Positions 3,321-23,567 of a DNA stretch of 35,181 bases are shown here, piece by piece (within the stretch, counting starts at the first letter, position 1; each line of letters starts with the position of its first letter). Origin of the DNA: Alphaproteobacteria bacterium (GTDB lineage Bacteria; Pseudomonadota; Alphaproteobacteria; Puniceispirillales; Puniceispirillaceae); NCBI GenBank assembly GCA_011525265.1, contig WTHV01000151.1, positions 1 to 35,181 on the forward strand. Direction: 5' to 3'. The notes under the pieces were generated by a model. That model did not search any database and was not told the origin of the DNA. It saw nothing but the letters and a program-made list of their open reading frames with translations. Made by a program: the position numbers and the translations under genes.

Positions 3321-4211
3321 CTATTGTGATGCGCTTAGCGTTTTTGTAATGAGGTTCAAATTATGCTCGAACATCGCCACATAAGATGTCGCAGGAGCGC
3401 CTTTGACTGATAGGGCGTCTGAGTAAATTTTGCCGCCAATATCGATATTTGTCTCTCGTGCGATTTGCGCGATTAAATCGGCGTTTGAGATATTCTCAAC
3501 AAACAAAGCACCTGCGCCCACATCTTTCAAAAAGACAATCAGATCGGCAAGTTCTTTGGCTGATGGCTCTGCTTCTGTATCAATGCCTTGCGGAGCAAGG
3601 AAGGTGATATCATAGGCATTTTCAAGATAGCCAAACGCATCATGCGCTGTCACAACAATGCGGCGCTCTTGTGGAATGCCGGCAATTTTTTCAACAGCCT
3701 CATCATGCAGCGCGCGCAATTGTGAACGATATGCATCGGCATTTGCCTTGAAGCTTGCGCTATCAGCGGGGCTTGCCTTGCTGAGGGCTGCCTCAATATT
3801 ATCGACATATATAATGCCGTTTAAAAGCGAATTCCAAGCGTGCGGATCAACTTCCCCTTCGACAAGCAAAGGCATGACACCATCTGTGGCAACAGCGATA
3901 GATGCCTTTGTGCCTGACGCTTCGATTAATGTCGCAGACCAAGTCTCAAAACCCATACCATTTGTGATGATAAGATCAGCTTCGGCAACCGCAATCGCAT
4001 CACCAGCATTTGGCTGATAGAGATGGGCATCAGCATCAGGGCCAACAATGGTTGTGACAGTCGCTTTATCGCCTGCCACTTGCGAGACCATATCACCCAG
4101 AATAGAAAAGCTTGCCACAACTTTGATCTGTGCCATTGCGGTGTTTGTTGAAAATAATAGCGCTGATAGCAACACAGATTTGAAAATAAACCGTCTCATC
4201 ATACCGCCCAT
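3321..4211 (-). CDS. Metal ABC transporter substrate-binding protein, ZnuA/TroA family (PF01297-type)
   Basis: Signal peptide MMRRFIFKSVLLSALLFSTNTAMA. Candidate metal-ligand motifs DAHLYQP, DPHAWNS, VTAHDAFGYL, KIYSDAL. No long His-rich loop. Confidence 0.85.
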   Translation of the reverse strand: MGGMMRRFIFKSVLLSALLFSTNTAMAQIKVVASFSILGDMVSQVAGDKATVTTIVGPDADAHLYQPNAGDAIAVAEADLIITNGMGFETWSATLIEASGTKASIAVATDGVMPLLVEGEVDPHAWNSLLNGIIYVDNIEAALSKASPADSASFKANADAYRSQLRALHDEAVEKIAGIPQERRIVVTAHDAFGYLENAYDITFLAPQGIDTEAEPSAKELADLIVFLKDVGAGALFVENISNADLIAQIARETNIDIGGKIYSDALSVKGAPATSYVAMFEHNLNLITKTLSASQ

Positions 4212-5060
4212 TTACATTCTTTTAGATTTTGACCACATGTTACCGCGCAAGCCCAAAGGTGACAGGCATAGGCTTGCGATAAATACAATGCCGGCGACAA
4301 GGACAATAGCAGGGCCAGTCGGCACATCAGCAAGATAAAAAGATAAGAGCAACCCAGCCCAACAGCTGAAGATCGCGAATAATAATGTCACAAGAAGATA
4401 GCTTGAAATGGTTGAGACCCAATAACGTGCGGCAGTCGCAGGTAAAATCATCAGCCCCACAGCCATCAATGTGCCAAGCGATTTAAATGCTGCTAGCAAA
4501 TTAAGGACAACCAAGAACATAAACCATTGCTGAACAAGACCTGCATGAGATGATTGGCTATCATAGAAAGTCGGGTCAAAGGTCACGCTAATAAGGGGGC
4601 GCAATAACATGGTCATGCTAAGGATCGTGATGGTTGCTGTGACCCCGATCAGTAAAAGCGTATCATCACCAATGCCAAGTGTTGAGCCAAATAAGAAACT
4701 CTTTAAGGGTATGGCAGACCCTGCAGCAGATAAAATGAAAATACCCAAAGCAAGAGCTATCAAATATAAAGAGGCAAGAGAGGCATCTTCTTTGATTAAG
4801 GTACGCCGTGAGATCAGTGATGTGCCAAGTGCCACGATAACACCGGCGATAAGTCCGCCTGTAACCATCGAGACAACAGACAGCCCAAATGAGACAAAGG
4901 CAATCACAATGCCAGGTACAATCGCATGTGCCATCGCCTCACCTGCCAAAGACAGGCGGCGCAAAACAAGAAAGGCACCAATCGGGGCAATAGAGACGCT
5001 TAACACAAAGGTCGCCACAAAAGCGCGCTGCATAAAATCATAGGCAAACCAATCAAGCAT
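4212..5060 (-). CDS. Metal ABC transporter permease, ZnuB/ABC-3 family
   Basis: Polytopic protein with LRRLSLAGEAMAHAIVPGIVIAF, typical of ABC-3 permeases. ATG at 5060 has AGGAGG just upstream; the tracked ORF extends to 5075. Confidence 0.85.
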   Translation of the reverse strand: MLDWFAYDFMQRAFVATFVLSVSIAPIGAFLVLRRLSLAGEAMAHAIVPGIVIAFVSFGLSVVSMVTGGLIAGVIVALGTSLISRRTLIKEDASLASLYLIALALGIFILSAAGSAIPLKSFLFGSTLGIGDDTLLLIGVTATITILSMTMLLRPLISVTFDPTFYDSQSSHAGLVQQWFMFLVVLNLLAAFKSLGTLMAVGLMILPATAARYWVSTISSYLLVTLLFAIFSCWAGLLLSFYLADVPTGPAIVLVAGIVFIASLCLSPLGLRGNMWSKSKRM

Positions 5061-5796
5061 CTCGGCCTCCTGCATCTGTCAGGCGTGAAATCCATTGCGC
5101 TTGCGTATGTGTTAAATAGTGATGCGATATCAGGTTCTCATTTGTCACAACATCATCTGTTTTGCCAAATAAGCCACGGCCATCACCAAGCAAAAGGCAG
5201 TAATCAGCAATACCCATAACAGATGATAAATCATGCAATACGATAATAAGGGTACGCCCCTCATCACGCCATTGTTGGATAATATCAATCAGCTGTGATT
5301 CTGTGCTCTGGTCAATAGCGGTAAAGGGCTCATCAAGGATGATGGTAGGGGCATCTTGGACAATGGCTCTGGCAAAAAAGCAGCGCTGAAGCTGGCCAGA
5401 GGAGCATTCAAATAAGGGCCTGTCAGCCATATGTGTGAGGCCTGTTCGCAATAACGCATTTTCAACACGCTCTGCCATAGCGTTATTAATGCCCTGCCAA
5501 AACCCTAATTGTGGCCATACCCCCATTGTCACAGCATCTTTGACGCGCATCGGGAAATGATTATCAATTGTGGCACTTTGGCCAAGATAGGCGATGTTTT
5601 TCTTCGTCGCTCCTGCCCATTGGACAGAGCCTGAAAGAGGTGATTGAATGCCAAGTAATGTGCGAACCAATGTTGATTTGCCCGCGCCATTATGACCAAT
5701 GACCGCACAAATCTGGCCGGCGCCTAGATGAAAATCTAGCGGATTGCACAGTGCGGTGCCGTTATAGCCCAACACAATATTATGTGCAGTCAACAT
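5053..5796 (-). CDS. Metal ABC transporter ATP-binding protein, ZnuC/AztA-like
   Basis: Walker A GHNGAGKST, signature SSGQLQR, Walker B TIILDEP; overlaps the permease start. Confidence 0.87.
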   Translation of the reverse strand: MLTAHNIVLGYNGTALCNPLDFHLGAGQICAVIGHNGAGKSTLVRTLLGIQSPLSGSVQWAGATKKNIAYLGQSATIDNHFPMRVKDAVTMGVWPQLGFWQGINNAMAERVENALLRTGLTHMADRPLFECSSGQLQRCFFARAIVQDAPTIILDEPFTAIDQSTESQLIDIIQQWRDEGRTLIIVLHDLSSVMGIADYCLLLGDGRGLFGKTDDVVTNENLISHHYLTHTQAQWISRLTDAGGRDA

Positions 5797-5826: not shown

Positions 5827-6021
5827 TTAGCTGAAGATAATATAGCTAATGGACGTCCAAATTACAGCACATAGTAAGGCCGCGCCAGCACAAGCATGAA
5901 ACAGGCTAAGAGAGGTCAAATCAAAGGGTGACTGTGATTTACCATGCGGCGCTTGCACATGAACTGTGGGCGCTATAATAGGTGGTGATGTTACGCTGGT
6001 TTGTGAGCCAGATGGTGCCAT
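5827..6021 (-). CDS. Small protein (~64 aa) with one C-terminal transmembrane segment, first ORF after the cobalamin riboswitch
   Basis: ATG at 6021..6019 with GGAGA about 8 nt upstream; MAPSGSQTSVTSPPIIAPTVHVQAPHGKSQSPFDLTSLSLFHACAGAALLCAVIWTSISYIIFS. Tracked ORF uses TTG at 6033. Confidence 0.6.
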   Translation of the reverse strand: MAPSGSQTSVTSPPIIAPTVHVQAPHGKSQSPFDLTSLSLFHACAGAALLCAVIWTSISYIIFS

Positions 6022-6056
6022 TTTTATCTCCAAAAGGGGTTACCCGCCCCAAGAAA

Positions 6057-6272
6057 GTGGTTTCGTGATTGGCAGGTTTTCTGGCTCATGATTTATCAGT
6101 TATGTCTGCCTTCCCAAATTTGCGCGATATGGCCTATCTGCTATGCAAATTCAGTGGTCTTGTGACACACATTAATCATTTACAGCTGCGGGTACAGCTC
6201 CGGATTTGCCGTAGTCAAAAAGCGTTTAGCGCACCGGATTCCCTATTATGTTTCAGGCTTAACTGAAACCAC
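6057..6272 (-). ncRNA. Cobalamin (AdoCbl) riboswitch
   Basis: Minus strand has the conserved blocks in order: AATAGGGAATCCGGTG (6247-6232), GCTGTACCCGCAGCTGTA (6199-6182, B12-box region), CCACTG (6157-6152), GGGAAGGC (6115-6108), GAGCCAG (6087-6081), AACCTGCC (6078-6071). Possible closing stem GTGGTTTC/GAAACCAC (6272-6265 with 6064-6057). Confidence 0.93.
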
Positions 6273-6283
6273 CAATAATATCT

Positions 6284-6312
6284 CGTTTATTACTTAAATT
6301 TACCCCTGTCAA
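6284..6312 (-). promoter_or_regulatory. Candidate sigma70-type promoter for the riboswitch transcript
   Basis: Minus strand TTGACA (6312-6307) with a 17-nt spacer to TAAACG (6289-6284), just upstream of the riboswitch. The -10 match is weak. Confidence 0.4.
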
Positions 6313-6337: not shown

Positions 6338-7117
6338 TTATAAGATCACCAATAGGCTTAACCAGCCAGCGGTCTCGCTTAGCATTTGACTTGCACCGCA
6401 AATATCACCTGTTTGCCCGCCAATATGACGCTTTGCCATCAGGGCAAAGCCGAAAGCAACAATCACCATGACAATCAGGCTTGGCAGAATCGCAACACCG
6501 CAAAAGGCCATCATTGGAAGGCTAAGAGCTGTGGCGAAGAAAAGCGGTTTATATGTTTGGCCAGATGCCATCTCGCCAAGGCCTGTATCACGCGCAGATG
6601 GAAGTAGGCATAAATAGGCAACCATGATTGTGCGGCTGAGGATGCTGATGGTGATGATGAGCGCTATCATGTCAAAATGCGGTGGCAGAGACGCAAGGCC
6701 AAATACACGCAAAGCCATCACCATGATAAGAGCCAAGACGCCATAGCTGCCGATATGGCTGTCTTTCATAATGGCTAATTTGCGGTCCCTATCATGGCCG
6801 CCGCCCATACCATCTGCGCTATCTGCTAGCCCATCTTCATGCAATGCCCCTGTTGCCAAAAGGCCAAGGCTTAATGCCAGAAGTGCGGCAATGATTGGGG
6901 GCAGCCCTACAAATGATAAGCCGCCATAGGATAGGGCGATGATGCTGCCTATGATACTGCCAACAAGTGGGAAGGCCCACCGTGATGTTGCAAGGCTAGG
7001 CGCTTTGCCAGATAGGGTGCCGGCAGGCAGGCGGCTTAATAGCATGAAGGCCAGCTGAACCTCGATAAGACGTCCACGCACCCACCCCATTATCTTAACC
7101 AATGCCTGCTGATTCAA
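6338..7117 (-). CDS. cobS: Adenosylcobinamide-GDP ribazoletransferase (CobS; CobV in Pseudomonas nomenclature)
   Basis: LATGALHEDGLADSADGMGGG motif in a polytopic 259 aa protein; adjacent to cobT. Confidence 0.93.
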   Translation of the reverse strand: MNQQALVKIMGWVRGRLIEVQLAFMLLSRLPAGTLSGKAPSLATSRWAFPLVGSIIGSIIALSYGGLSFVGLPPIIAALLALSLGLLATGALHEDGLADSADGMGGGHDRDRKLAIMKDSHIGSYGVLALIMVMALRVFGLASLPPHFDMIALIITISILSRTIMVAYLCLLPSARDTGLGEMASGQTYKPLFFATALSLPMMAFCGVAILPSLIVMVIVAFGFALMAKRHIGGQTGDICGASQMLSETAGWLSLLVIL

Positions 7118-8096
7118 ATGTTGCCATATTATTATGACAGGCCACAGCCCCGCGCAAAATAGACAACGCTAAGGCTGCGCCAGTACCTTCACCAAGGCGC
7201 ATATTCAAGTCTAGGATGGCAGTCTTACCCATCGCTTCAAGTAATTTGATATGACCAGGCTCGACAGATTTATGACCAACAAGACAATGGTCAAGTATTT
7301 GCGGGTTGATGCCATAAAGTGGTGCGGCAGCGGCTGTGCAAATAAAGCCATCTAGCATAACAGGAATGGACGCGGCACGTGCGGCGAGGATAGCACCGCA
7401 AATGGCAGCTTGTTCACGGCCACCAAAGGCGGCTAATGCGCTGAGATCTGAGCGGCGCCCATGCATCTCAAGGCCTTTATTAATGACATCGACCTTATGG
7501 GCTTGGCCTGCGGCATCAGAGCCTGTGCCTGCGCCAACCCACTCTTTGGTCTCGCCGCCAAAGACAGACGCTGCCAATGCTGATGAGATGGTTGAATTGC
7601 CAATACCCATCTCTCCCAAAAGGATGATATCTGCTGATGTGTCAATCGATGAGGCGCCAATTGCTAGGGCATCAAATAGCTCATCTTCTGAGAGGGCTTG
7701 TGTGGTGGTGAAGTCAGCTGTTGGCTTATCCAATGAGAGAGGTACAACATTTAAATTTGCCCCACTCACACCGCATAGCTGGTTCATTGCCGCGCCACCT
7801 GCATCAAAATTGGCGACCATCAAATGGGTGACTTCTTGTGGAAAAGGGTTCACGCCTTGTGCGCAAATGCCATGATTGCCTGCAAAGATAATCGCTTGGG
7901 CATTGTCAATTTTTGGCTTGTCTTGTCCTTGCCAACTAGCAAGAAAAACAGCTAATTCTTCAAGCGTGCCAAGAGAGCCTGGTGGCTTTGTTAAGTTATT
8001 TTGATGTGCTTGTGCGGCTGATGCGATGGCGTCATTTGCTTGTGGCATATTTTGCACGAATTGTAAGACGTCATCATGATTGCCAAATTGTGTCAT
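7095..8096 (-). CDS. cobT: Nicotinate-nucleotide--dimethylbenzimidazole phosphoribosyltransferase (CobT; CobU in Pseudomonas)
   Basis: TKPPGSLGTLEELA, FAGNHGICAQGV, LLGEMGIGNSTISSALAA and FICTAAAAPLY motifs. Confidence 0.95.
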   Translation of the reverse strand: MTQFGNHDDVLQFVQNMPQANDAIASAAQAHQNNLTKPPGSLGTLEELAVFLASWQGQDKPKIDNAQAIIFAGNHGICAQGVNPFPQEVTHLMVANFDAGGAAMNQLCGVSGANLNVVPLSLDKPTADFTTTQALSEDELFDALAIGASSIDTSADIILLGEMGIGNSTISSALAASVFGGETKEWVGAGTGSDAAGQAHKVDVINKGLEMHGRRSDLSALAAFGGREQAAICGAILAARAASIPVMLDGFICTAAAAPLYGINPQILDHCLVGHKSVEPGHIKLLEAMGKTAILDLNMRLGEGTGAALALSILRGAVACHNNMATFESAGIG

Positions 8097-8132
8097 GGGT
8101 GTGTCCCCTCACCGACCAGTTATTCACGGTCA

Positions 8133-8639
8133 CTATTTTAATTTCAAAGGCATTCCAGAAATGCATGCATATACTTCGTCGACTGTCTTTGCAACGGTTT
8201 GGTTTAAACGACCTGCTTCATCGCGAAAACGCCTTGCAAGCGCATTTTCTGGCACGATGCCGGCGCCAACTTCGTTGGTTACAAAAATCACATCATCTTG
8301 GCGCGTGGTGATGGCATCCACCAATGCTTTTGTGGCTTGTGGGATATCTTTTTCTGAAAACATCAGATTTGATAGCCAAATGGTAAGACAATCAACAAGG
8401 CAGGTGCCTTGCCCATCTGTTTTGCGAAGCGCTTCTGCTAATTCTAGCGGCTCATTTATGGTGTGCCATTCATCGCCGCGCCTATCTTGATGCTCTTTAA
8501 TGCGGCTTTCCATCTCTTCATCAAAGGCTTGGGCTGTGGCAATGTAGATAAGCGGTGTGCCACGCAAAAGAGCACGCTCTTCGGCAAATCGGCTCTTTCC
8601 AGAACGCGCACCACCAGTTACTAATAGCGAGTAAGACAT
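8133..8639 (-). CDS. cobU: Adenosylcobinamide kinase / guanylyltransferase (CobU; CobP)
   Basis: P-loop LLVTGGARSGKSRFAEERA, CLVDCLTIWLSNL, VTNEVGAGIVPENALARRFRDEAGRLNQ. The conserved N-terminus implies ATG at 8639, not the tracked 8696. Confidence 0.93.
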   Translation of the reverse strand: MSYSLLVTGGARSGKSRFAEERALLRGTPLIYIATAQAFDEEMESRIKEHQDRRGDEWHTINEPLELAEALRKTDGQGTCLVDCLTIWLSNLMFSEKDIPQATKALVDAITTRQDDVIFVTNEVGAGIVPENALARRFRDEAGRLNQTVAKTVDEVYACISGMPLKLK

Positions 8640-8685
8640 GGCTAAATTCTTAGCCCAGAGAGTGTAAAAAGGGAAATCATTTTTG

Positions 8686-9279
8686 ATGTCAGCCACGCCA
8701 GCCCATAAGGTTTTGAATTTTATCAGGCACGCCCCAAGCCAGCCGGCCGGCTATCTCTATGGTCAAACAGATGCTGATATTGGCCTGATTGAAGGGTCTG
8801 TGGCAGAGGGGGTGCGCGGTTTAATTGGCGCACCTGATTTGGTGGTATGTAGCCCTGCAACAAGATGTCAGAAAACCTGTGATGGTGTGTTATCTGATGA
8901 TTATCCGCGCGAGACAAATGCTGATTTGTGGGAGCAATCATTTGGCAGATGGGACGGTCTTGCTTTCAAAGAATTGCCCGATATTGGCACTTTGCAAGAT
9001 GAGGCACTTGCCGCCTTTGCCGCACCAGATGGGGAGAGCTTTATCGATTTGTGTAATCGTGTTCAGCCTGTTATTCGCCAGATTTGCCAGATGAGGGTAG
9101 AAGAAAATATCAGTTTGTTTGTCCATGCCGGTGTTGTCCGTGCGGCATTGGCATTAGCCTTTGGCAGTTATGCGGCGGCACTAAAATGTGAAATTGACCC
9201 TTTATCAGTTACAAATTTGCGCTTTCTGGGTGACGCAGGATTTTCGGTTATGGGCGTTAATCAGACGGTGTCATCATGA
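8686..9279 (+). CDS. Alpha-ribazole phosphatase-like histidine phosphatase (CobC-type)
   Basis: Histidine-phosphatase motif FIRHAPS, later LFVHAGVVRA; within the B12 cluster. Confidence 0.78.
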   Translation: MSATPAHKVLNFIRHAPSQPAGYLYGQTDADIGLIEGSVAEGVRGLIGAPDLVVCSPATRCQKTCDGVLSDDYPRETNADLWEQSFGRWDGLAFKELPDIGTLQDEALAAFAAPDGESFIDLCNRVQPVIRQICQMRVEENISLFVHAGVVRAALALAFGSYAAALKCEIDPLSVTNLRFLGDAGFSVMGVNQTVSS

Positions 9280-10244
9280 TTTTGATAAGCGCCTTTTTGG
9301 CGGCATTGATTATCGACCGCTTTATCGGCTGGCCTGCGTGGTTATATCAGCGTCTATCACATCCCGTTGTGGCAATTGGGGCATTGATTAGCTGGCTTGA
9401 TAAGCAGTTAAATAACAGCAGCAGGTCAGATTTTCTGCGTCGTCTTTTTGGTGTGCTATGTGTGATGATAGTGTGCTGTATCTGTCTTTTGGTCTCACTA
9501 TTGCCTGCGCTAATTTATACAGGCGGTATCATTGATGGTGTGATCATTGCGATTTTGGCTTGGCCTTTTTTAGCCGCGAAATCTTTGAAAGATCATGTGG
9601 CGATGGTTGCCATGCCATTATTAGATAATGACACAGATACCGCACGCCAAGCGGTTGCGATGATTGTGGGACGAAACGCAAGCACCCTAGATGATACAGC
9701 CATAGCGCGTGCCAGTATTGAAAGCTTGGCAGAAAATACCTCAGATGGTGTCATTGCCCCTTTATTTTGGGGCATGATTTTTGGCCTTCCCGGTCTTATT
9801 ATTTATAAAGCGATTAACACGATGGATTCTATGATCGGCTATCGTAATGCGCAGTATAAAGATTTTGGCTGGGCGGCGGCACGTCTTGATGATGTGGTAA
9901 ACTTTATCCCGGCTCGCCTGACAGCCTGTCTTTATGCGCTCTCAACAAAGCGGTTTTTTACTTGTCTTAAAACAATCTTTCGTGATGGGGCAAAGCACCG
10001 CTCGCCAAATGCGGGTTGGCCAGAATCAGCGATGGCGGCCGCATTGAATAGACGCCTGTCTGGGCCGCGCATATATGATGGCGTCAAAAGTAATGATGCG
10101 TGGCTTTATAGCGAGGGGGCAGACCCAGATGGCCAAGATGTTATGAAAGCTATTCACCTTTATGATATTTTGCTGAATTGGGTGATTTTTATCGCTATGG
10201 TGTCGGTGATTTCGATGTTGTTTTATGGGTATGGCAGGTTGTAA
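9276..10244 (+). CDS. cbiB: Adenosylcobinamide-phosphate synthase (CbiB; CobD in Pseudomonas)
   Basis: DRFIGWPAWLYQRLSHPVVAIGALI, SIESLAENTSDGVIAPLFWG, NTMDSMIGYRNAQYKDFGWAAARLDD motifs. Confidence 0.95.
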   Translation: MILISAFLAALIIDRFIGWPAWLYQRLSHPVVAIGALISWLDKQLNNSSRSDFLRRLFGVLCVMIVCCICLLVSLLPALIYTGGIIDGVIIAILAWPFLAAKSLKDHVAMVAMPLLDNDTDTARQAVAMIVGRNASTLDDTAIARASIESLAENTSDGVIAPLFWGMIFGLPGLIIYKAINTMDSMIGYRNAQYKDFGWAAARLDDVVNFIPARLTACLYALSTKRFFTCLKTIFRDGAKHRSPNAGWPESAMAAALNRRLSGPRIYDGVKSNDAWLYSEGADPDGQDVMKAIHLYDILLNWVIFIAMVSVISMLFYGYGRL

Positions 10245-11218
10245 TGCGTGAACATGGCGGTGATTTAGATAGAGCCATTTCACTCTATGGTGGCACACGT
10301 CAAAGCTGGTTGGATTTGTCCACGGGCATTAATCCGCATGCCTATCATTTGCCTGATATAGCGCAAGATTACTGGGCTAATCTGCCTGATCATGCTTTAT
10401 TTGAGGCAGCAGAGCGTGCCGCACAAAAGGCCTATCATACAGATGCGCGCTGTATGCCGATTGCCGGTGCGCAACAAGCCATCCAACTCTACCCCGCTAT
10501 CATACCAAAAGGCGGGAATGATGCCCGTCTTTTAAGTCCCACCTATAATGAGCATGAGGCACAATTAAATAGACATGGCTGGCAGGTCAGTTTGTGTGAT
10601 AGGCTTGATGATTTGCGTGGCGCTGATTGTGCGGTTGTTGTGAATCCGAATAATCCAGATGGGCAAGTTTTTACCCCTCAGCAATTGGCCGCCCTAGGAG
10701 ATGAGGTTGGCACGCTGATTATTGATGAAAGTTTTTGTGACCCCCACCCAGAGGCGTCTTTATTGCCCCGCCTTGATAAGCAGATGGGTAATCGTATCAT
10801 CTTGCGATCATTTGGAAAATTTTATGGGCTTGCGGGTATGCGCCTTGGCTTTGTCTGCGGTACAGGCGCCATGATCGAAGAGATGGCAGATGGTGCTGGG
10901 AAGTGGAATGTATCAGGCCCTGCTTTGGCCGTTGGTAGCGCTGCTTTGCAAGATGTGACATGGCGTGATGAGATGATTGGCAGGCTCACCCAAGAGGCAG
11001 ATCAGCTAGATAAAATTGTCTGTGCGCATGGCTTAAAGCTTGTTGGCGGCACCACCTTGTTTCGCCTATATGAGGCAGATGATGCGCGCGCTATCCAGAA
11101 CCAGCTTGCCAAAAACTATATTTGGAGCCGTATCTTTAGCTATAATCCAAAATGGATACGCCTTGGTCTGCCAGATGCCACAGGCTGGGCCCGATTAGAA
11201 GACGCACTAGCGTCCTAG
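10244..11218 (+). CDS. Threonine-phosphate decarboxylase, PLP-dependent aminotransferase fold (CobD; CobC in Pseudomonas)
   Basis: [66 protein letters not shown] (PLP Lys). ATG at 10244 overlaps the upstream TAA; the tracked start 10178 is probably too early. Confidence 0.92.
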
Positions 11219-12672
11219 ACAGCTTTGGCCAAGATAGCGTCAATATCAAGATGCGCCTCTAGGTGATCTGCAAGCTTGTCTAATGTGGCTTCAATTGTCG
11301 CCTCAAAGGATGTATCAGCCGCTTTTACGCCTAAATTTTCCAGAAATTGCTTGCGAAAGGCATCTTGCGAAAACAGCCCATGAATATAGCTGCCTTGAAC
11401 AGAGCCATCAGCAGAGCAAGCCCCATCAGGGCGGCCATCAATCATTGCAAATGGCCTCTCACAATCTGGCCCTGTGGTCGTGCCAAGGTGGATTTCATAG
11501 CCATCAACTTCAAGCTTTGAGGCACAATGTATGGCGCGGACTGTTTTCAGCGTTTTATCAGCATGCATAGTCGTTTCAATAGCCAAAAACCCAAGGCCTT
11601 CAGTGTGACCGGCAGGCCCTTCAAGCCCATCAGGGTCAGAAATGCGTTTGCCAAGCATCTGATACCCCCCGCAAATGCCCATGATTTTGCCGCCGCGCCG
11701 ATGATGGGCGGCAAGATCAATATCCCAGCCTTGCTCGCGTATAAAGGCCAGATCTCCTCTTGTCGATTTAGAGCCAGGGATGAGGACAAGGTCTGTATCA
11801 GGCGCGATGGTCTGCCCTGCTTTGACCATGGTAAGCGCGATATTTGGCTCTTGCGAGAGCGGGTCTAAATCATCAAAATTTGCCATACGTGATAGGCATA
11901 AGCAGGCAATTTTATAAGGGGCATCATCTGATGTTTTAGCGATGTTGGATGCGATATCAAGCGCATCTTCAGCCGGCAGGCGCCATGCATCATTAAAATA
12001 GGGCAAGACGCCAAATCCTGGCCAGCCTGTGCGCTCAGCTATCAGCTGATAACCATCATCAAATAAAGAGACATCGCCGCGAAATTTATTAACGATAAAG
12101 CCTGCAATTTGTGCACGATCTGCTCCGTCCAATACCACATCTGTTCCCACAATCTGCGCGATAATACCGCCTCTATCAATATCGCCAACTAAGATCACAG
12201 GCACATTACCCGCAATAGCAAAGCCCATATTCGCAATGTCATTCGCACGTAAATTGACCTCAGCAGGGCTTCCCGCCCCTTCGACAATCACAAGATCATA
12301 TTGTGCCTTTAGGCGGTTAAAACTCATCAGAACAGGTGCCATTAATTGCGGTTTTAATGAGGCATAATCACGCGCTTTCATAGAGCTATGACGCTTGCCT
12401 TGAATAATGATTTGCGCGCCTGTTTCTGTCTCAGGCTTGAGCAAAATCGGGTTCATATCTGTATGAGGGGGCAGGCTGCAGGCGCGTGCTTGCAGGGCTT
12501 GGGCTCTACCAATTTCGCCGCCATCATGCGTGACAGCCGCATTATTTGACATATTTTGAGGCTTAAAAGGTGCGACACTAAGGCCACGGTTTTTAGCCGC
12601 ACGACATAGCCCTGCCACCAAAACAGATTTACCAACATTTGAGCCTGTGCCCTGTAACATAATCGCTGGCAT
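11215..12672 (-). CDS. cobQ: Cobyric acid synthase (CobQ)
   Basis: [63 protein letters not shown]. Confidence 0.96.
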
Positions 12673-12687
12673 GAGTGAGGACCGCCT

Positions 12688-13326
12688 TTAAAACTCAACA
12701 CCCTTTTGTGCTTTGATGCCATCTCTGAAAGGATGTTTGATCAGGGACATTTCTGTGACCATATCTGCCGCTTCAATAAGCTCTTCTTTGGCATTGCGTC
12801 CTGTTAGCACAACATGTGTCATAGGCGGTTTATGATGAAGCAGGAAGTCAACCACCTCATCAATATCAAGATAGTCATAGCGAAGCGCGATATTGATTTC
12901 ATCAAGCAAGACAAATTGCATATCAGGGTTGCTAATCAGCTCTTTGGCCCGCTCCCAACCTGCTTGTGCGGCGGCGATATCTCGTTCTCTGTCCTGTGTC
13001 TCCCATGTGAAACCTTCACCAGACACAACAAAGGTGCATTCTTGAGAAAAGCGTTGTTCTAGGAAGTCACGCTCGCCCGTGCGCCATGTGCCTTTGATGA
13101 ATTGGACAACAGCGCATGGCATTTGGTGGGCGATACAGCGCATGATCATGCCAAAGCCTGATGATGACTTGCCTTTGCCAGCACCCGTATGGACGATAAT
13201 CAGACCTTTTTCTTCGGTCTTTGTCGCCATAAGCTTATCTCTCGCAGCTTTGATTTTCTGCATCTTTTTATTGTGCGCCTCATTGCGAGCCGCGTCATCT
13301 TTTGATGGGATTTCTGAGGCACTCAT
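12688..13326 (-). CDS. cobO: Cob(I)yrinic acid a,c-diamide adenosyltransferase (CobO/BtuR)
   Basis: IVHTGAGKGKSSSGFGMIMR, VVQFIKGTWRTGE, LLDEINIALRYDYL, VVLTGRNA. Confidence 0.95.
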   Translation of the reverse strand: MSASEIPSKDDAARNEAHNKKMQKIKAARDKLMATKTEEKGLIIVHTGAGKGKSSSGFGMIMRCIAHQMPCAVVQFIKGTWRTGERDFLEQRFSQECTFVVSGEGFTWETQDRERDIAAAQAGWERAKELISNPDMQFVLLDEINIALRYDYLDIDEVVDFLLHHKPPMTHVVLTGRNAKEELIEAADMVTEMSLIKHPFRDGIKAQKGVEF

Positions 13327-13361
13327 GATGGTCTTTCCTTTAATTTAACGATTCGCCATAA

Positions 13362-13380
13362 TTGCCAGAATTCTGGGCAA
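13362..13380. promoter_or_regulatory. Imperfect palindrome TTGCCAGAATTCTGGGCAA in the cobO/cobW divergent intergenic region
   Basis: Reverse complement is TTGCCCAGAATTCTGGCAA (one-base shift from palindromic). Candidate operator or hairpin in the cobO leader. Confidence 0.35.
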
Positions 13381-13502
13381 AAGACGATCATTCGTCATCC
13401 AAAATTTTGCCACCGATGCTTTTGCACTTCTGCTTTTGATGTGATACAAAAACGGGAAAAATAAATGTCGCATTCTGGGTAGCGATTTAAGTGGCCTTGC
13501 CG

Positions 13503-13517
13503 CTAACTGATAGTTAG
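13503..13517. repeat. Inverted repeat CTAACT-GAT-AGTTAG upstream of cobW
   Basis: Perfect 6-bp arms with 3-nt spacer in the divergent intergenic region. Confidence 0.4.
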
Positions 13518-13635
13518 ATAATACCAACTCATGTTGCAAGCCTTTATCAGCATTTTATGGCTATGAACAGCGATTGTTCAGATAGTCATGATGGCTGAAT
13601 TTGGCAGTGATATAGGACAATTTTATAGGGTTAAA

Positions 13636-14673
13636 ATGCAAAATATTACAAAAATTCCCGTTACCATTATCACAGGCTTTCTAGGCGCTGGTAAGACGAC
13701 TTTGATCTCACAGCTTATGCAAAACCCGCAAGATAAGCGTTTGGCAGTGATTGTGAATGAATTTGGTGATGTGGGCGTTGATGGTGATATCCTCAAAAGC
13801 TGTGCGATTCCAAATTGTCCAGAGGAAAATATTATGGAATTGGCCAATGGCTGTATTTGTTGCACCGTGGCAGATGATTTTATTCCCACAATTGAGCAAT
13901 TAATGGCACTCGACCCTCAGCCAGATCATATTTTGATTGAAACATCAGGGCTTGCTTTGCCAAAGCCATTATTGAAGGCGTTTGATTGGCCTGATATTCG
14001 CTCTCGTATCACTGTTGATGGTGTGATTGCCCTTGCAGATGCAGAGGCGGTTGCAAGTGGGCAATTTGCACCAAACCTAGCGGCTGTTGAGGCGCAGAGA
14101 TTGGCAGATGATTCGCTAGATCATGAAACACCTCTCTCAGAAGTGTTTGAAGATCAGATTGCGTGTGCGGATATGGTTTTGTTAACCAAATCAGATTTGG
14201 CAAGTGAGGCTGATAAGCAAAAAGCCAAAGATGTCATCACTGATACCGCGCCGCGTCAATTGCCGATTATTGAAATCATTGATGGGGTGATTGACCCGCG
14301 TCTTTTGCTTGGCCTTGAGGCGGCGGCAGAAGATGATATGGATGCGCGCCCCTCACATCATGATGGTGTGCCAGAGCATGATCATGAAGATTTTGATAGC
14401 GCGATTTTTGATATTCCAGAGATTGATGATATTGACGTGCTAACCGCAAAGATTGAACGCCTTGCAGATGAGCAACATATCTTGCGCGTTAAAGGATATG
14501 CGGCTGTCACAGGTAAGCCTATGCGGTTGCTTGTGCAGGCTGTTGGCTCTCGCATTCGCACGCAATTTGACCAAATGTGGCAAGAAAGCGCGCTACGCCA
14601 AGGACGTCTTGTTGTGATAGCAGAGCATGACCATATTGATATCGCGGCAATCAATGCCATTTTGCAGGGTTAG
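13636..14673 (+). CDS. cobW: CobW-family GTPase / metallochaperone (COG0523)
   Basis: P-loop GFLGAGKTT, NGCICCTV (CxCC) and a His/Asp-rich segment SHHDGVPEHDHEDFD; next to cobN. Start could be 13588. Confidence 0.93.
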   Translation: MQNITKIPVTIITGFLGAGKTTLISQLMQNPQDKRLAVIVNEFGDVGVDGDILKSCAIPNCPEENIMELANGCICCTVADDFIPTIEQLMALDPQPDHILIETSGLALPKPLLKAFDWPDIRSRITVDGVIALADAEAVASGQFAPNLAAVEAQRLADDSLDHETPLSEVFEDQIACADMVLLTKSDLASEADKQKAKDVITDTAPRQLPIIEIIDGVIDPRLLLGLEAAAEDDMDARPSHHDGVPEHDHEDFDSAIFDIPEIDDIDVLTAKIERLADEQHILRVKGYAAVTGKPMRLLVQAVGSRIRTQFDQMWQESALRQGRLVVIAEHDHIDIAAINAILQG

Positions 14674-14680
14674 CCCATAG

Positions 14681-17600
14681 ATGCATGTATTATTTGTTGA
14701 AAGACATGGCCTAGAGGAAACAGAACAGCCGGTTGATCTTGACCATCAGCCTGCTGATTTGGTTGTCTTGTCTTTCTCAGATAGTGATTTGGGCGCATTT
14801 GCGGCCGGATGGCATCGTGCCAATGAGGCGGCAAAAGAGGGGTTCCCTTCTTTGCGTCTTGCCAATTTGGCTGCGTTAAAGCATCCAGTTTCTGTTGATA
14901 CTTATTGTGAAAAAACGCTCTGCCATGCGCGTGCCATTTTGGTGCGCTTGATTGGCGGTGTGCCTTATTGGTCTTATGGCCTGCATCAGGTGGCCAAGCT
15001 TGCCAAAAAGCATAATATCGCATTTGCCGTTATACCGGCCGATGGTCGTCCTGATAAACAGCTTGATGAGATATCAAGCGTGCCTGTTTCAACATTGCGC
15101 CGTTTGCAACATTTTTGTGAAACAGGTGGCAAGGTGGCAGCACATGCGGCACTTGCCCAATTGGCCTTGGCAGGCGGCCTTTATGCCGGCCCTGTAAATG
15201 GCGCAAAAATTGTCGGTAATGTCGGCGGCTGGTCACCTGAACAAGATGTGTGTTGTCCTGTGATCTCTTGTGGTTTTACAGAGCGGCCGCGCATACTCAT
15301 TACCTTTTATCGCTCCTTTATCGCGGCGGCTGACCTGAAGCCCATTGCGGCATTATTTGACCAATTGCGCTCTCACGGCTTTGATGTGATGAGCTTGTTT
15401 GTGCCATCGCTAAAGGCCCCTGATGCGGCGCGATGGCTAAAGCGGCAAATCGCCTATTACAAGCCTGTTAGCATTGTCAATGCGACCTTCTTTTCTGGTA
15501 AGGGTAAATCTGGAGAATCGCCGCTTGATTGTGGTGATGTGCCTGTGTTTCAGCTTGCTCTTGCCACCTCTAACCGCCAAGCATGGCAAGAGGCTGATAG
15601 AGGTCTATCGCCCGCTGATATGGCAATGCATGTGGTGTTACCAGAGGTGGATGGACGCATTTTTGCAGGGGTTGTGTCTTTCAAAGAGCCAGAGGCCTTA
15701 GATGAAGGGTTGCAATTTGCCGCAATTGCGCATCAGCCAGAAGAGGCACGAATTAAGGCTGTCGCACAAAAAATTGCCAATTGGCATAAATTACAGACAA
15801 CCCGGCTTGATGAGCAAAAACCAGCTTTGATTTTATCGACCTATCCGGGGCGGCCTTGGCAAATGGCTCATGCCGTGGGGCTTGATGCGATACAATCTGT
15901 GGAATCAATTTTATCATTCCTAGGTCATATTGAAGAGGGCACAAAACTGAATCTTGAAGCCCGCTTGCAAGATGAGACCATTAGCTGGGACTTAGCCTCT
16001 TATCGGGCCGCCTTGCAGAGCTTGCCGCGTGAGTTACAAGAAAAGCTTGCCGAGATATGGGGCGCGCCTGAGGATGATGGGCTTGTCAAAAATGGCGCTT
16101 TTCACTTCCCTGCTGTGCGATGCCATAATGCGCTTGTGGCCTTGCAACCTGAAAGAGGGGATGTGGCAGACCGTGATGCTGATTATCATGATATCTCGCG
16201 AACGCCGTCTCATAGTTATGTGGCTTTTTACCTCTGGCTTCAAAAGGCGTATCAGGCAGATGCGATTATTCATGTTGGCGCGCATGGCACATTGGAATGG
16301 TTGCCTGGCAAGGCGGTTGCTTTATCAGATGCCTGTTGGCCAGAGGCTTTGGCAGGGCATTTGCCTATCATCTATCCGTTTGTCGTGAATGATCCGGGCG
16401 AGGCTGCTCAAGCAAAACGCCGTATTGCGGCTGTGACGATGGGCCATATTCCCCCGCCTTTGCGCGTCGCAGATGCCCCCGCTCAATTTAGCTATTTGGA
16501 ATCATTGCTTGATGAATATTCCAATGCAGATGGGCTTGATCCCAAAAGACGTGATCGCCTCAAAGATGAGATTCTCTCAGAGGCAAATGCCCTTCATATT
16601 TCCGCCGATCTTGGGCTTGGTGAAGAGAGCGACTCTGCTGAGGCTTTGACCAAAATTGACTCATTTGTCTGTGATATCAAAGAAAGCCAATTTGGTGATG
16701 GCTTGCATATTTATGGTGTTGGTGGGCAAGAGCAAAAAGCCTTTGAGACACAAGACTCAATTACCTCAGAGAGGCACGCTATTCAAAAGGCATTATCTGG
16801 CAAGCTGATTTCGGCAGGGCCTGCGGGCTCACCCTATCGCGGCAGAATGGATGTGCTGCCAACGGGGCGTAATTTATATGCCAGCGACCCGCTATCAGTG
16901 CCAACAAGAGCCGCCTATGCGCAAGGGGTGAAATTGGCAGATGAGCTTGTCCGTCGTAATCTGCAAGATAAGGGCGATTGGCCATCTGGTATCATTGTGG
17001 ATTTATGGGGCTCTGCGACCATGCGTACCGCAGGTGAAGAATTTGCGATGGCATTGCATTTATTGGGGGTCAGGCCGCTATGGAATGAGGGATCAGAGCG
17101 TGTCTCAGGGTTTGAAATCCTGCCTTTGGGCGTGTTGGATAGGCCGCGTATTGATGTGACATTGCGCGTCTCTGGCCTGTTCAGGGATGTCTTTCCAACC
17201 CTTTCGACCTTATTCCAGCAAGCGGTTGAGGCATTAAGGGAGCGTGATGAGCGCCCCGAACAAAACCCCTACATCACGCTTGAAGATGATGACACAGCGC
17301 GGATATTTGGCCCTGCGCCTGGCAATTATGGTCTTGGCATGGGTGATGCGCCTGATCGTCTTGATGAGGCAGGGCGCAATGCGGCTGCACAAGCTTGGAT
17401 TGCGGCAAGTGAATATGCGATTAATGGGGATGAGATCACGCCGAATAAAAAAGCGTTACTCGCCCGAATTAAACAAGCAGATAGCTTTGTCCATTTGCAA
17501 GATATGGCCGAAACAGATTTATTGCTTTCGGCTGATTATGCCGCGCATGAGGGCGGTTTTGCGGCGGCAAAGACTATAGTTGGCGGGTCTGCTAATTTGT

Positions 17601-17977
17601 ATCATCTTGATAATACCAACCCTGAAAAGCCAGTAGCGCGCAGTGTTTCTGAGGAAATTGCCCGTGTGGTCTATGCCCGTGCTAGCAACCCTGAATGGCA
17701 CGCAGGCATGATGCGTCATGGCTATCGCGGTGCGGCTGAGATTGCAGCAACCTTGATGCATATGGCAGCTTTTTCAAATTTGGCAGATGTTGTGGGCGGG
17801 CATTTATTTGATAAATTCCACGAGGCCACATTAGATAATGAGGATGTGGTTGCCTTTATGGAAGAGGCCAATCCTGAGGCTCTGGACGCCATGCGTGATT
17901 GTTTCAGACGCCTTTATGATTCTGGCCTATGGGATACAAAGCGGAACTCTATCAGAGCGACGCTTGAGGCGGTGTGA
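14681..17977 (+). CDS. cobN: Cobaltochelatase subunit CobN
   Basis: 1098 aa; HVGAHGTLEWLPGKAVALS, AWPEALAGHLPIIYPFVVNDPGEAAQAKRR-type CobN motifs (hand-read), LPTGRNLYASDP. Confidence 0.96.
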   Translation: MHVLFVERHGLEETEQPVDLDHQPADLVVLSFSDSDLGAFAAGWHRANEAAKEGFPSLRLANLAALKHPVSVDTYCEKTLCHARAILVRLIGGVPYWSYGLHQVAKLAKKHNIAFAVIPADGRPDKQLDEISSVPVSTLRRLQHFCETGGKVAAHAALAQLALAGGLYAGPVNGAKIVGNVGGWSPEQDVCCPVISCGFTERPRILITFYRSFIAAADLKPIAALFDQLRSHGFDVMSLFVPSLKAPDAARWLKRQIAYYKPVSIVNATFFSGKGKSGESPLDCGDVPVFQLALATSNRQAWQEADRGLSPADMAMHVVLPEVDGRIFAGVVSFKEPEALDEGLQFAAIAHQPEEARIKAVAQKIANWHKLQTTRLDEQKPALILSTYPGRPWQMAHAVGLDAIQSVESILSFLGHIEEGTKLNLEARLQDETISWDLASYRAALQSLPRELQEKLAEIWGAPEDDGLVKNGAFHFPAVRCHNALVALQPERGDVADRDADYHDISRTPSHSYVAFYLWLQKAYQADAIIHVGAHGTLEWLPGKAVALSDACWPEALAGHLPIIYPFVVNDPGEAAQAKRRIAAVTMGHIPPPLRVADAPAQFSYLESLLDEYSNADGLDPKRRDRLKDEILSEANALHISADLGLGEESDSAEALTKIDSFVCDIKESQFGDGLHIYGVGGQEQKAFETQDSITSERHAIQKALSGKLISAGPAGSPYRGRMDVLPTGRNLYASDPLSVPTRAAYAQGVKLADELVRRNLQDKGDWPSGIIVDLWGSATMRTAGEEFAMALHLLGVRPLWNEGSERVSGFEILPLGVLDRPRIDVTLRVSGLFRDVFPTLSTLFQQAVEALRERDERPEQNPYITLEDDDTARIFGPAPGNYGLGMGDAPDRLDEAGRNAAAQAWIAASEYAINGDEITPNKKALLARIKQADSFVHLQDMAETDLLLSADYAAHEGGFAAAKTIVGGSANLYHLDNTNPEKPVARSVSEEIARVVYARASNPEWHAGMMRHGYRGAAEIAATLMHMAAFSNLADVVGGHLFDKFHEATLDNEDVVAFMEEANPEALDAMRDCFRRLYDSGLWDTKRNSIRATLEAV

Positions 17978-19128
17978 TGGAACGCCCGCAAGCTAAGGGA
18001 TGGTGTCCTACGACATTGGTGCCTATGCAATCAGGCGATGGGTTGATTGTGCGCATAAAGCCTGCTTTTGGGCGTCTTACCTCTGACCAAGCAAAAGCAG
18101 TTGCTGATTTAGCACGCCTTTATGGCAATGGGTTTCTCGATATCACAAGCCGCGCCAATATACAGATAAGAGGCGTGGATGAGGCCGCGCTGCCCTCTCT
18201 TATCGCCGCGCTACAAGGTCATGATTTGGCAAGCACAGATGAGGCTCGTGATAGGTTGAACCTTATTCTTGCGCCTTTTACAGATGAGACGATGATAGGC
18301 TATCACTGCGCCAAACGTCTTTATGAGGCTACAGTCTCTTTGCCAGAATTACCTGCCAAATTTGGCTTTGCGATTGATACAGGCGAAAAGCGTATCATAG
18401 CTAATGCCTCAGCAGATATCAGGATAGAAACAGATCAAAGCGGCGCTCTTATCATTAGGTGTGATGGGTGCGATACAGGCTTTCAGACAAGCCTTGATAG
18501 GATGATAGGTGATATTCAAAAGGTTTTGGCGTGGTACCTTGCCCAAAAACAAGAGGGCGCACGATTGGCGCGCATGGCACAATACGCACATGCCCAAAAG
18601 GTGCCAAAAGACTTTCGTCTCATCACACCAAATGAAACGCAGGATGATGTGCGTGTAGGCGCTCGCAAAGATGCGGGCTATGATATTCTCGGTGTGCCCT
18701 TTGGCCAATGCCATGCCGATAGCTTGTCACAATTAGCGATGCACACAAAACAGATAGAGGTGACGGTGAACCGTTGCTTAGTGGTTGATACAGGCGCTGG
18801 TGCAAAGACTGATTTTATCACCAAGCCAGATGATGGCAGGCTTGCGGTGATAGCCTGCCCAGGTGCGCCTGCTTGTGCATCAGCGACAATGGCAACACGC
18901 AATTTAGCTGAAGAATTGGCAAGTAAGATTACGGCATCAGCGGGGCTTTCGTGCGATAAAACCTATCATATTTCTGGTTGTACCAAAGGGTGCGCCGCAC
19001 CGCGTGCAACTGATATTTGTATCATTGGTGATGGTGCGCATTATGCAATCATAGAAAATGGTTGCGCGTGGGAGCCGCCATCTATTACATCGCTATCAAG
19101 TGATGATGTGTTAAAGACAGTAAAATAA
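17977..19128 (+). CDS. cobG: Precorrin-3B synthase (CobG), nitrite/sulfite-reductase-like
   Basis: GDGLIVRIKPAFGRLTSDQAKAVADLARLYGNGFLDITSRANIQIRG; Fe-S/siroheme-type C-terminal region CPGAPACASA and ISGCTKGCAAP. Confidence 0.93.
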   Translation: MERPQAKGWCPTTLVPMQSGDGLIVRIKPAFGRLTSDQAKAVADLARLYGNGFLDITSRANIQIRGVDEAALPSLIAALQGHDLASTDEARDRLNLILAPFTDETMIGYHCAKRLYEATVSLPELPAKFGFAIDTGEKRIIANASADIRIETDQSGALIIRCDGCDTGFQTSLDRMIGDIQKVLAWYLAQKQEGARLARMAQYAHAQKVPKDFRLITPNETQDDVRVGARKDAGYDILGVPFGQCHADSLSQLAMHTKQIEVTVNRCLVVDTGAGAKTDFITKPDDGRLAVIACPGAPACASATMATRNLAEELASKITASAGLSCDKTYHISGCTKGCAAPRATDICIIGDGAHYAIIENGCAWEPPSITSLSSDDVLKTVK

Positions 19129-19147
19129 AAGTAAGGGCGAGCGCGTA

Positions 19148-19777
19148 ATGCCACATATCTATGAAAAAAATGGGGCGGCCATTTATAGGGATTCTTTTGC
19201 GACAATCCGTGCTGAGGCACAATTAGCAGATTTTACGCCTGAAGAAGAAATTGTTGTTGTGCGCATGATCCATGCCGCTGGTCTCGTTGAATTAGCGCCA
19301 CACGTCAAATTCACACCCACATTTGCCATTGATGCCAGAGCAGCCCTAGAGGCAGGCGCGCCTATCTTATGTGATGCCAGAATGGTAAGCGAAGGCATCA
19401 CAAGAACAAGATTGCCTGCCAATAATGAGATTATCTGCACCCTTCATGACCCGAATGTGCGCCAGATGGCTAAAGAAGCAGGCAATACCAGATCAGCTGT
19501 GGCATTGGAATTATGGCGCCCACATCTTGAAGGGGCTGTTGTGGCAATTGGCAATGCGCCAACCGCGTTATTTCATCTTTTGAATATGCTTGAAGACCCT
19601 TCATGCCCACGCCCTGCGGCTATTATTGGCTGTCCTGTTGGTTTTATCGGCGCAAGAGAGAGTAAAGATGCGCTGATGGCAGCGCCGCCTGTGCCAAGCT
19701 GTATTGTCGAAGGTCGCCTTGGCGGCAGTGCGATTACAGTTGCAGCTGTGAATGCCCTTGCAAGCCGGATTGAGTAG
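19148..19777 (+). CDS. cobH: Precorrin-8X methylmutase (CobH)
   Basis: VRMIHAAGLVELA, AGAPILCDARMVSEGI, AIGNAPTALFHLL, IIGCPVGFIGARESKDAL. Confidence 0.96.
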   Translation: MPHIYEKNGAAIYRDSFATIRAEAQLADFTPEEEIVVVRMIHAAGLVELAPHVKFTPTFAIDARAALEAGAPILCDARMVSEGITRTRLPANNEIICTLHDPNVRQMAKEAGNTRSAVALELWRPHLEGAVVAIGNAPTALFHLLNMLEDPSCPRPAAIIGCPVGFIGARESKDALMAAPPVPSCIVEGRLGGSAITVAAVNALASRIE

Positions 19778-19783
19778 AGGCTG

Positions 19784-20515
19784 ATGACAGGTTTTGGAAC
19801 AATATATGGCGTTGGTTTAGGGCCAGGTCAGCTTGATTTGATGAGTGTGCGTGCTGACCGGCTTGTGCGTGGTGCAAAACATATCGCTTTTTTCCGAAAA
19901 GCAGGGCGCGCTGGTCATGCGCGTACATTGGCAGGGCCTCTATTGGCTGAGGGCGTGATTGAATTTGCGATGGAATATCCTGTGACAACAGAAATTCCGT
20001 TGAGTGATCCACGCTATAATCAGCAATTATCAGAATTTTATGAGGCCTGCTGTGCGCATATTATGGCAATCGCACAAGATGGTGAAGATGTGATTGTGCT
20101 ATGTGAGGGCGACCCGTTTTTCTATGGCTCATTCATGCATATTTATAATCGTGTGAAAGATCACTGTCCTGTTGAGGTGGTGCCTGCCATTACAGGGATG
20201 TCTGCGGCTTGGACTGCGACAGGGGCGCCAATTACATGGGGCGATGATGTACTAAGCGTGTTAATGGGCACGCTTGATAGGCAGACATTGGAAACACAAT
20301 TGGCACAGACCAATGCCGCTGTGATTATGAAAATCGGGCAAAATTTGCCAAAGGTGCGGCAAGCGCTTCAAGATTCTGGTCATTATGAGTCTGCTTATAT
20401 TGTGGAATATGCCGCAATGGAAAATCAAAGCGTGGCATTGCTATCTGATTATGACCAAGAACGGGCGCCTTATTTCTCGATTATCATTGTTCATGGGCAA
20501 GGGAGACGGCCATGA
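19784..20515 (+). CDS. cobI: Precorrin-2 C20-methyltransferase (CobI)
   Basis: GTIYGVGLGPGQLDLMSVRADRL, VIVLCEGDPFFYGSFMHIYNRV, VVPAITGMSAA. Confidence 0.95.
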   Translation: MTGFGTIYGVGLGPGQLDLMSVRADRLVRGAKHIAFFRKAGRAGHARTLAGPLLAEGVIEFAMEYPVTTEIPLSDPRYNQQLSEFYEACCAHIMAIAQDGEDVIVLCEGDPFFYGSFMHIYNRVKDHCPVEVVPAITGMSAAWTATGAPITWGDDVLSVLMGTLDRQTLETQLAQTNAAVIMKIGQNLPKVRQALQDSGHYESAYIVEYAAMENQSVALLSDYDQERAPYFSIIIVHGQGRRP

Positions 20516-21276
20516 CTGGGCGCATAATGGTTGTAGGGCTTGGCCCCGGGCATGAGGGGCATATCACCCCACTTGTCAGTGAAGCGGTAGCGCGTGCCAC
20601 AGATGTGATTGGCTATATCCCGTATGTTGAGCGTATTGCCCCGCGTCAGGCACTGACGCTTCACCCAACTGATAATCGTGTTGAGGCAGAGCGTGCCCAA
20701 CATGCGCTAGAGCTGGCAGAAAAGGGGCGCCAAGTGCTTATCGTCTCATCTGGCGATCCAGGTGTGTTTGCTATGGCATCAGCCTTGTTTGAAGTCTTTG
20801 AGCGTGATAGCGCAAGATGGCAGGATATCGCGATTGAAATCTTACCGGGCATTACCGCCATGCTCGCCGCCGCATCAAGAGCAGGCGCGCCGCTTGGGCA
20901 TGATTTTTGCGTCATTAACCTCAGCAATAATCTAAAGCCATGGGCGATTATTGAAAAAAGAGTGCGTTGTGCGATTGAAGCTGATTTGGCAATGGCATTC
21001 TATAATCCGCGCTCTAAATCACGGCCGGCTGAGTTTGAAAAAACACTGACCTTATTAAAGACGCATTGCCAAGATGATAGGCCAATACTCTTTGCCAGAG
21101 CTGTTTCAACAGCTGATGAGGTCATTCGCGTTGTGCCTTTGTCGCAAACAACCCCTGATATGGCAGATATGAAGACAGTGGTCATTGTTGGCTCATCCCA
21201 AACGCGCGTCGTGTTGCAAGGTGATAAGCAATGGGTTTATACGCCGCGCTCTTATCCGTTTGATAACAGCCATTGA
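20512..21276 (+). CDS. cobJ: Precorrin-3B C17-methyltransferase (CobJ)
   Basis: VVGLGPGHEGHITPLVSEAVARATDVIGYIPYVER, VSSGDPGVFAMA, AMAFYNPRSKSRP. Confidence 0.96.
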   Translation: MTGRIMVVGLGPGHEGHITPLVSEAVARATDVIGYIPYVERIAPRQALTLHPTDNRVEAERAQHALELAEKGRQVLIVSSGDPGVFAMASALFEVFERDSARWQDIAIEILPGITAMLAAASRAGAPLGHDFCVINLSNNLKPWAIIEKRVRCAIEADLAMAFYNPRSKSRPAEFEKTLTLLKTHCQDDRPILFARAVSTADEVIRVVPLSQTTPDMADMKTVVIVGSSQTRVVLQGDKQWVYTPRSYPFDNSH

Positions 21277-23190: not shown

Positions 23191-23567
23191 TGGGTGGGGC
23201 GATCATCATTGGGTTTGGGTTTCGGCAATCTGCCACGCTGACAAGTTTCGAAGATGCTTTTTCCCAGATGGAGATGACCGCCTCTTGCGCAGGCATAGCT
23301 GTGCCAGATGATAAGATAGATCATCCGCATCTATTGGCTTTTGCTGAAAAAAAGGGGCTTAGGATTTTTGGTGTTTCCCAAGCAGTAATTGCCGTGATGA
23401 AGACACCAACCCAATCTCATATCATTAAACAAAAAAGACAGGTTGGAAGTGTTGCTGAGGCGGTGGCACTTGCTTTATTAAAGAAGCCAGCACGTATTGT
23501 GAGGACAAGGTGCATCTCACAAGATAGAAAAGCGGTATGTGCCGTTGCTGAAGGAGTGTTATTATGA
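23190..23567 (+). CDS. cobE: CobE / CbiG C-terminal-like cobalamin biosynthesis protein
   Basis: [17 protein letters not shown]...; position between cobL and cobM; ATG at 23190 overlaps the cobL TGA. Confidence 0.85.

Follow-up and report, generated by a model that had tools for sequence, protein, structure and literature searches.

Our analysis revealed a conserved small gene directly behind the cobalamin riboswitch of the window (the whole stretch of 35,181 nucleotides that was analysed), and we consider it probable, at roughly 0.6, that this gene encodes an accessory subunit of a metal ABC importer of the AztABC/ZniCBA type, which is here switched by vitamin B12 for cobalt. The small open reading frame (ORF) is confirmed as a real, conserved coding gene, and it is more than a chance ORF since 75 of 77 scorable loci have a homologous ORF in the same place and dN/dS values stay well under 1. 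The small proteins constitute an unnamed family, whose genes immediately precede that of the ATPase across an entire branch of zinc and (probably) cobalt importers. The features concerned are:

5827..6021, minus strand: small one-helix membrane protein of 64 aa (ORF, homologues, selection, AlphaFold2)
6028..6031, minus strand: Shine-Dalgarno GGAG of the small gene (sequence; position conserved in relatives)
6036..6050, minus strand: P13/L13 hairpin GGGG-CGGGUAA-CCCC, abutting the Shine-Dalgarno of the small gene
6054..6291, minus strand: cobalamin riboswitch aptamer, RF00174 (101.4 bits, full-length)
6188..6194, minus strand: L5 loop UACCCGC, complementary to L13 (sequence; L5/L13 covariation in relatives)
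5053..5796, minus strand: ATP-binding protein, AztA-like (183.7 bits, equivalog cut-off 220)
4212..5075, minus strand: permease of the ABC-3 family, AztB-like (214 bits, cut-off 280)
3321..4211, minus strand: substrate-binding protein, AztC/ZniA-like (269.8 bits, cut-off 350)
6338..27171, no single strand assigned: cobalamin biosynthesis cluster adjoining the importer (NCBIfam)

The small gene and its operon

The small ORF runs from its ATG (6019-6021) to its stop codon (5827-5829), with the Shine-Dalgarno GGAG located 6 nt from the ATG, and the ATPase gene (5796-5053) follows as the next gene on the strand 30 nt downstream. In outline the protein reads MAPSGSQT...HVQAPHGK...FHACAGAALLCAVIWTSISYIIFS. 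Its AlphaFold2 model, based on a 43-sequence alignment, contains a single helix (residues 35-63, pLDDT 94-97) and a disordered N-terminus. By the positive-inside rule, the polar N-tail (residues 1-34) is predicted to be cytoplasmic; the net charge of this tail is positive in 47 and negative in 9 of 75 homologues. An earlier sequence-only reading had described a protein of about 64 amino acids with one C-terminal transmembrane helix, encoded by the first gene after a B12 riboswitch, and was right in each of these points. It had also considered that the protein might clearly match a known unrelated family, but Pfam, NCBIfam and PHROGs gave zero family matches. Comparison with PDB profiles yielded weak, meaningless matches only (CydC, E 0.02), and no relatives were found on the viral contigs searched.

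For all three importer proteins the closest named NCBIfam models are those of AztABC, yet all three score below the equivalog cut-offs. Solved relatives of the substrate-binding protein include AztC (5W56) and ZniA (8SVC). The permease is not of the ZnuABC type, as it scores 214 bits against AztB versus 74 bits against ZnuB, and it is 27.9% identical to the ZnuB-like protein of its own genome. According to the ORF list the operon ends with the binding-protein gene at 3321 and holds no AztD; the large ORF thereafter (1868-3100) encodes an MFS-type transporter. The best match to a Zur box in the window has 6 mismatches. Ten genes of the adjoining cobalamin cluster were confirmed by NCBIfam, namely cobS, cobT, cobU, cbiB, cobQ, cobO, cobW, cobN, cobJ, and cobB. 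The same genome encodes a separate ZnuABC-like locus (L179, contig C40) with a Zur-box-like site of 3 mismatches and without a small ORF.

Conservation and selection of the small gene

Scanning species genomes with a permease alignment gathered 80 related loci, mainly from Alphaproteobacteria (Ruegeria, Roseibium/Labrenzia, Shimia, Amylibacter, Filomicrobium, Rhodospirillales MAGs) and some from Gammaproteobacteria. The first relatives found had the gene order riboswitch, small ORF, ATPase. Among the 77 of these 80 loci with a scorable upstream region, 75 carry a one-helix homologue of 34-90 aa directly before the ATPase gene; the small gene is disrupted at locus L085 and absent at L081. Two additional loci (L180 and L182) were recovered with the small-protein profile alone, and L182 represents a divergent sister branch in which riboswitch and small ORF are both present. 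The gene adjoining the riboswitch operon at L182 (3372-5411) resembles by sequence methylmalonyl-CoA mutase, a B12 enzyme. A further locus (L181, the G357 match) was taken as chance, the permease being absent from that stretch. Within the window's own order the distribution is patchy, with about seven of 136 genomes detected by profile. Profile A2, which was too narrow, matched only the own genome among 289 genomes of the class, and a plasmid search using the Ruegeria permease gave zero matches.

The conserved core of the family is C/N-L-T-E-x-S-x3-L-x3-A-x3-S-x2-L-W-x2-I-x-A-V-I, in which T (72), S (74), W (75), and I (73) are near-invariant among 77 aligned sequences. The conserved residues cluster on a single side of the helix (p=0.003 for the conservation moment at 100 degrees). 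Pairwise dN/dS values are mostly 0.04-0.4, pooled pN/pS values for eight groups of close relatives range from 0.14 to 0.55, and differences by codon position amount to 1310/726/2529, third positions being the most variable. The small gene is under purifying selection, and the conservation in relatives on which the sequence-only reading had made its proposal depend was thus observed.

At 46 of 75 loci the stop codon of the small gene overlaps the ATPase start codon or lies right beside it (TGATG, TAATG, ATGA or adjacent), and elsewhere the spacing extends to tens of nucleotides. One might read this arrangement as that of a leader cistron only, whose translation extends riboswitch or Zur control to the ATPase gene and whose peptide has no job of its own. 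Such a reading would suit a gene that is first in the operon and starts directly behind the riboswitch hairpin, and a separate, poorly conserved cistron that looks like a coupling cistron does exist in Rhodobacterales. However, the variable spacing, the near-invariant T/S/W/I, the conserved helix face, and the persistence of the gene under different regulators argue against it; we consider it unlikely and rejected it as the main explanation because selection acts at the amino-acid level.

Many Rhodobacterales/Stappiaceae loci encode an extra ORF of 25-42 aa in the last 110 nt or so ahead of the small ORF. It is preceded by a second Shine-Dalgarno (GGAGG(T/A)GGCG-ATG), and its stop codon overlaps the start codon of the small gene (ATGA/TGATG). 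It was seen at L101, L104, L111, L112, L114, L116, L118, L119, L122, L124, L125, L133, L135-L138, and L140. Since its sequence is poorly conserved, this extra ORF looks like a coupling cistron.

Riboswitch control and the probable metal

The RF00174 aptamer is the sole match in the 89%-complete genome. Its L5 loop UACCCGC is perfectly complementary to the L13 loop GCGGGUA (6041-6047), and the variable base of both loops co-changes in most relatives (A with U, C with G), with a mismatch in a minority. This covariation is what the known L5-L13 kissing loop would lead one to expect. Folded alone, the P13 hairpin is not unusually stable (z=+1.2). Since its Shine-Dalgarno is located right behind a hairpin whose loop is complementary to the aptamer, the small gene is predicted to be the cistron most directly under translational control of the riboswitch. 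At several related loci (L102, L104, L112, L114, L116, L135, and others) a short reading frame, e.g. MFQAV... or MCHAA..., begins right after the P13 hairpin; it spans an apparent ACGGC-GCCGT hairpin, which is followed by a candidate hairpin masking the Shine-Dalgarno (CCCCGTCCG...CGGAGGAGG). Frame and hairpins together might act as a translational relay.

In the mechanism that we propose, adenosylcobalamin would switch an operon of four genes. When B12 is plentiful, the kissing loop would hold the hairpin beside the ribosome site and shut translation of the small gene; under B12 shortage, importer and small subunit would be made and would bring in cobalt for the neighbouring cobalamin pathway. 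The conserved helix face of the subunit would pack on the permease, and the protein may stabilise or tune the permease/ATPase complex with its tail at the cytoplasmic exit.

Judging by regulation and gene neighbourhood, cobalt is most likely the metal of the window importer, since the operon has the sole B12 riboswitch, cob genes adjoin it, and CbtA, CbiM, NicO, and HupE were not found in the genome, although its incompleteness (89% complete, 278 contigs) limits such absences. B12-riboswitch control together with cob-gene context, which serves as a criterion for cobalt importers, is present at the window operon. In binding proteins of the AztC type, the canonical metal ligands are not known to discriminate between zinc and cobalt. 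Across the clade RF00174 was detected at 60 of 70 tested loci. Nine of the ten riboswitch-less loci retain the small gene, which argues that the gene tracks the importer and not the riboswitch, and most of these ten constitute one nested branch of the permease tree, so that this branch appears to have lost the riboswitch and retained the small gene. At seven of the ten (L093, L096, L100, L121, L129, L130, and L142; mostly gammaproteobacteria) genes for a COG0523 GTPase and a WD40 protein follow the binding protein, a gene context that has been tied to zinc (PMC2770081).

Sister importers and the scope of the family

Our outgroup consisted of 30 AztB-like loci with 41-50% permease identity, chosen since the window-clade profile gave no convincing match in them, and was later extended to 52; sister-group permeases are about 40-50% identical to that of the window. 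The sister loci were selected as the highest-scoring AztB matches within a single sampled class, and the frequencies apply to that class. The sister loci were first taken to be without the small gene. This was overturned by a scan with a motif-free rule (28-110 aa with a hydrophobic helix and a Trp close to the C-terminus, the ORF ending where the ATPase gene starts), by which 45 of 52 sister (AztABC/ZniCBA-type) loci encode a small one-helix ORF, compared with 0 of 12 ZnuABC loci including that of the own genome (Fisher p=1.5e-8). The first window-clade HMM had been too narrow, giving two sister-clade proteins scores of only 0.015 and 0.064. That the small ORF might be a chance ORF or an annotation artefact is hardly credible: it is short, mostly unannotated, and without a known family, but conservation, position, and selection speak against it, as does the lack of any match at the ZnuABC loci under the same rule.

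Sister-clade proteins share an invariant Arg, then a Trp and a WA (R-x12-W-x4-WA), whereas the position of this Arg, 12 residues before the Trp, is mostly Leu or His in the window clade. Aligned with hhalign, the small-protein alignments of the two clades matched with E=4.5e-5 and a probability of 69%. This is only suggestive since the match comprises one hydrophobic helix, and the shared operon position is the stronger argument; homology of the two groups is moderately supported. A B12 riboswitch was found at none of 20 sister loci scanned, and a Zur box resembling TGTTATAATATAACA was seen at most sister loci, commonly with 0-3 mismatches versus about 5-7 in shuffled sequence.

These data also bear on the idea that the small protein is a cobalt-specific subunit, i.e. 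one that works like CbiN or CbtB and enables an importer of the zinc type to take cobalt. The B12 control at 60 of the 70 loci in the window branch and the difference in motif between window clade (CLTExS) and sister clade (SAGxRL) would fit it, but the same subfamily occurs at riboswitch-less loci with zinc-type COG0523/WD40 neighbours and homologues stand beside Zur-boxed importers. We regard the idea as quite unlikely, and the distribution of homologues indicates that the small protein is not cobalt-specific. The accessory subunit suggested by the sequence-only reading remains our preferred reading, while the tie to cobalt and riboswitch did not hold for the family.

CbtB, a short protein with a single helix, belongs to cobalt loci under B12 regulation, and its Pfam family (PF09489) had zero matches among 43 members of the small-protein family. 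The cobalt importer CbiMNQO also includes a small membrane protein, CbiN; however, CbiN has two helices and an extracytoplasmic loop (PMC7689651), whereas a single helix is predicted for the window protein, which gave no match to CbiN in Pfam. The sequence-only reading had seen no likeness to CbiN or CbtB, and we agree. Cobalt import under B12-riboswitch control is also described for the ABC importer CbtJKL of Sinorhizobium meliloti, but its binding protein is BtuF-like and of a different ABC family from that of the window, and a small subunit is not described for it (PMC7689651).

The ZniCBA zinc importer has been published from Klebsiella pneumoniae (PMC10797113) and Rhizobium leguminosarum (PMC12183173). 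It shares its ABC architecture with the window importer, and both have a one-helix ORF directly before the ATPase gene; the difference is in regulation, which is Zur/zinc control in ZniCBA and a B12 riboswitch instead in the window. The K. pneumoniae zni locus is located between mltB and pncC, in the order mltB, Zur box, 35-aa one-helix ORF (MFTSIFMASGAVRAAIAGVLLAALWLATWWAVTLP), zniC, and the ORF joins zniC by an ATGA overlap. We identified such unannotated one-helix ORFs of 33-39 aa between Zur box and zniC-like ATPase gene at L241, L245 (1388-1495), and L244, with Enterobacter hormaechei, K. pneumoniae, and E. coli 536 as hosts; the Enterobacter binding protein matches the ZniA structure 8SVC with E=6.8e-152. 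The Zur motif of R. leguminosarum precedes zniC by 153 bp (PMC12183173), a gap that leaves room for such an ORF. A term search of both papers (PMC10797113, PMC12183173) returned zniC, zniB, and zniA only, without mention of the small ORF, and no small protein was reported in the open-access literature searched on these operons. The small ORF therefore appears to have been missed in ZniCBA, as far as these searches show.

AztABCD of Paracoccus denitrificans differs, as it lacks the small ORF and includes AztD, a periplasmic zinc chaperone. Among public records of plasmids and genomes, 0 of 11 aztA/aztB-annotated or AztD-type operons had the small ORF; these include operons of Paracoccus, Sinorhizobium, and Shinella as well as Klebsiella aztABCD. 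It was present in nearly all other operons examined (Skermanella, Bartonella, Thioclava, Gemmobacter, Comamonas, and Neorhizobium, as well as Enterobacter, Klebsiella zni, and E. coli 536), the exception being one Bradyrhizobium locus; a Roseomonas operon stayed outside the tally as its ATPase is not annotated. Most of these small ORFs are unannotated, and those of Skermanella (WP_202684557.1) and Comamonas (WP_175506313.1) are listed as hypothetical proteins. Given the AztD-type operons, the Bradyrhizobium locus, and the 7 of 52 sister loci without it, permeases of this type do not always require the small ORF. The distribution could also be read as replacement of AztD, with the small protein aiding the docking of the binding protein or accepting metal on the cytoplasmic side, and the His-rich N-tails of several sister-clade members would agree with this. 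We hold it to be improbable, since the predicted tail is cytoplasmic and AztD periplasmic, His-rich tails are a minority, and the mutual exclusion may just reflect two lineages.

Zinc and manganese importers of cluster A-I are treated as consisting of three parts, i.e. binding protein, permease, and ATPase. The conserved helix is encoded before the ATPase gene in over 100 loci examined, published ZniCBA included, which suggests that earlier reconstitutions and mutants of such importers may have missed one component. As a tentative generalisation, Azt/Zni importers of this cluster without AztD might possess an overlooked obligate fourth subunit, a helix of 30-90 aa with N-in/C-out topology that is bound to the permease and replaces AztD. 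The class might then have moved between Zur/zinc and B12-riboswitch/cobalt control, with a zinc-type context again in some gammaproteobacteria, and carried the subunit along. CbiMNQO and NiCoT were likewise not found in the 89%-complete genome of the window, and its operon is a strong candidate cobalt importer for B12-making alphaproteobacteria.

The His-containing N-terminus, which the sequence-only reading had stressed, is not a feature of the family. At least one His occurs in only 20 of 75 homologues and two or more in 5 of 75, and metal binding by His was therefore rejected as the main role. Strongly His-rich N-tails were observed in the sister clade at L145, L148, L154, L160, L171, and L190, e.g. 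HDRDHAHHDHAHHDHA, and these might represent a cytoplasmic metal-binding tail.
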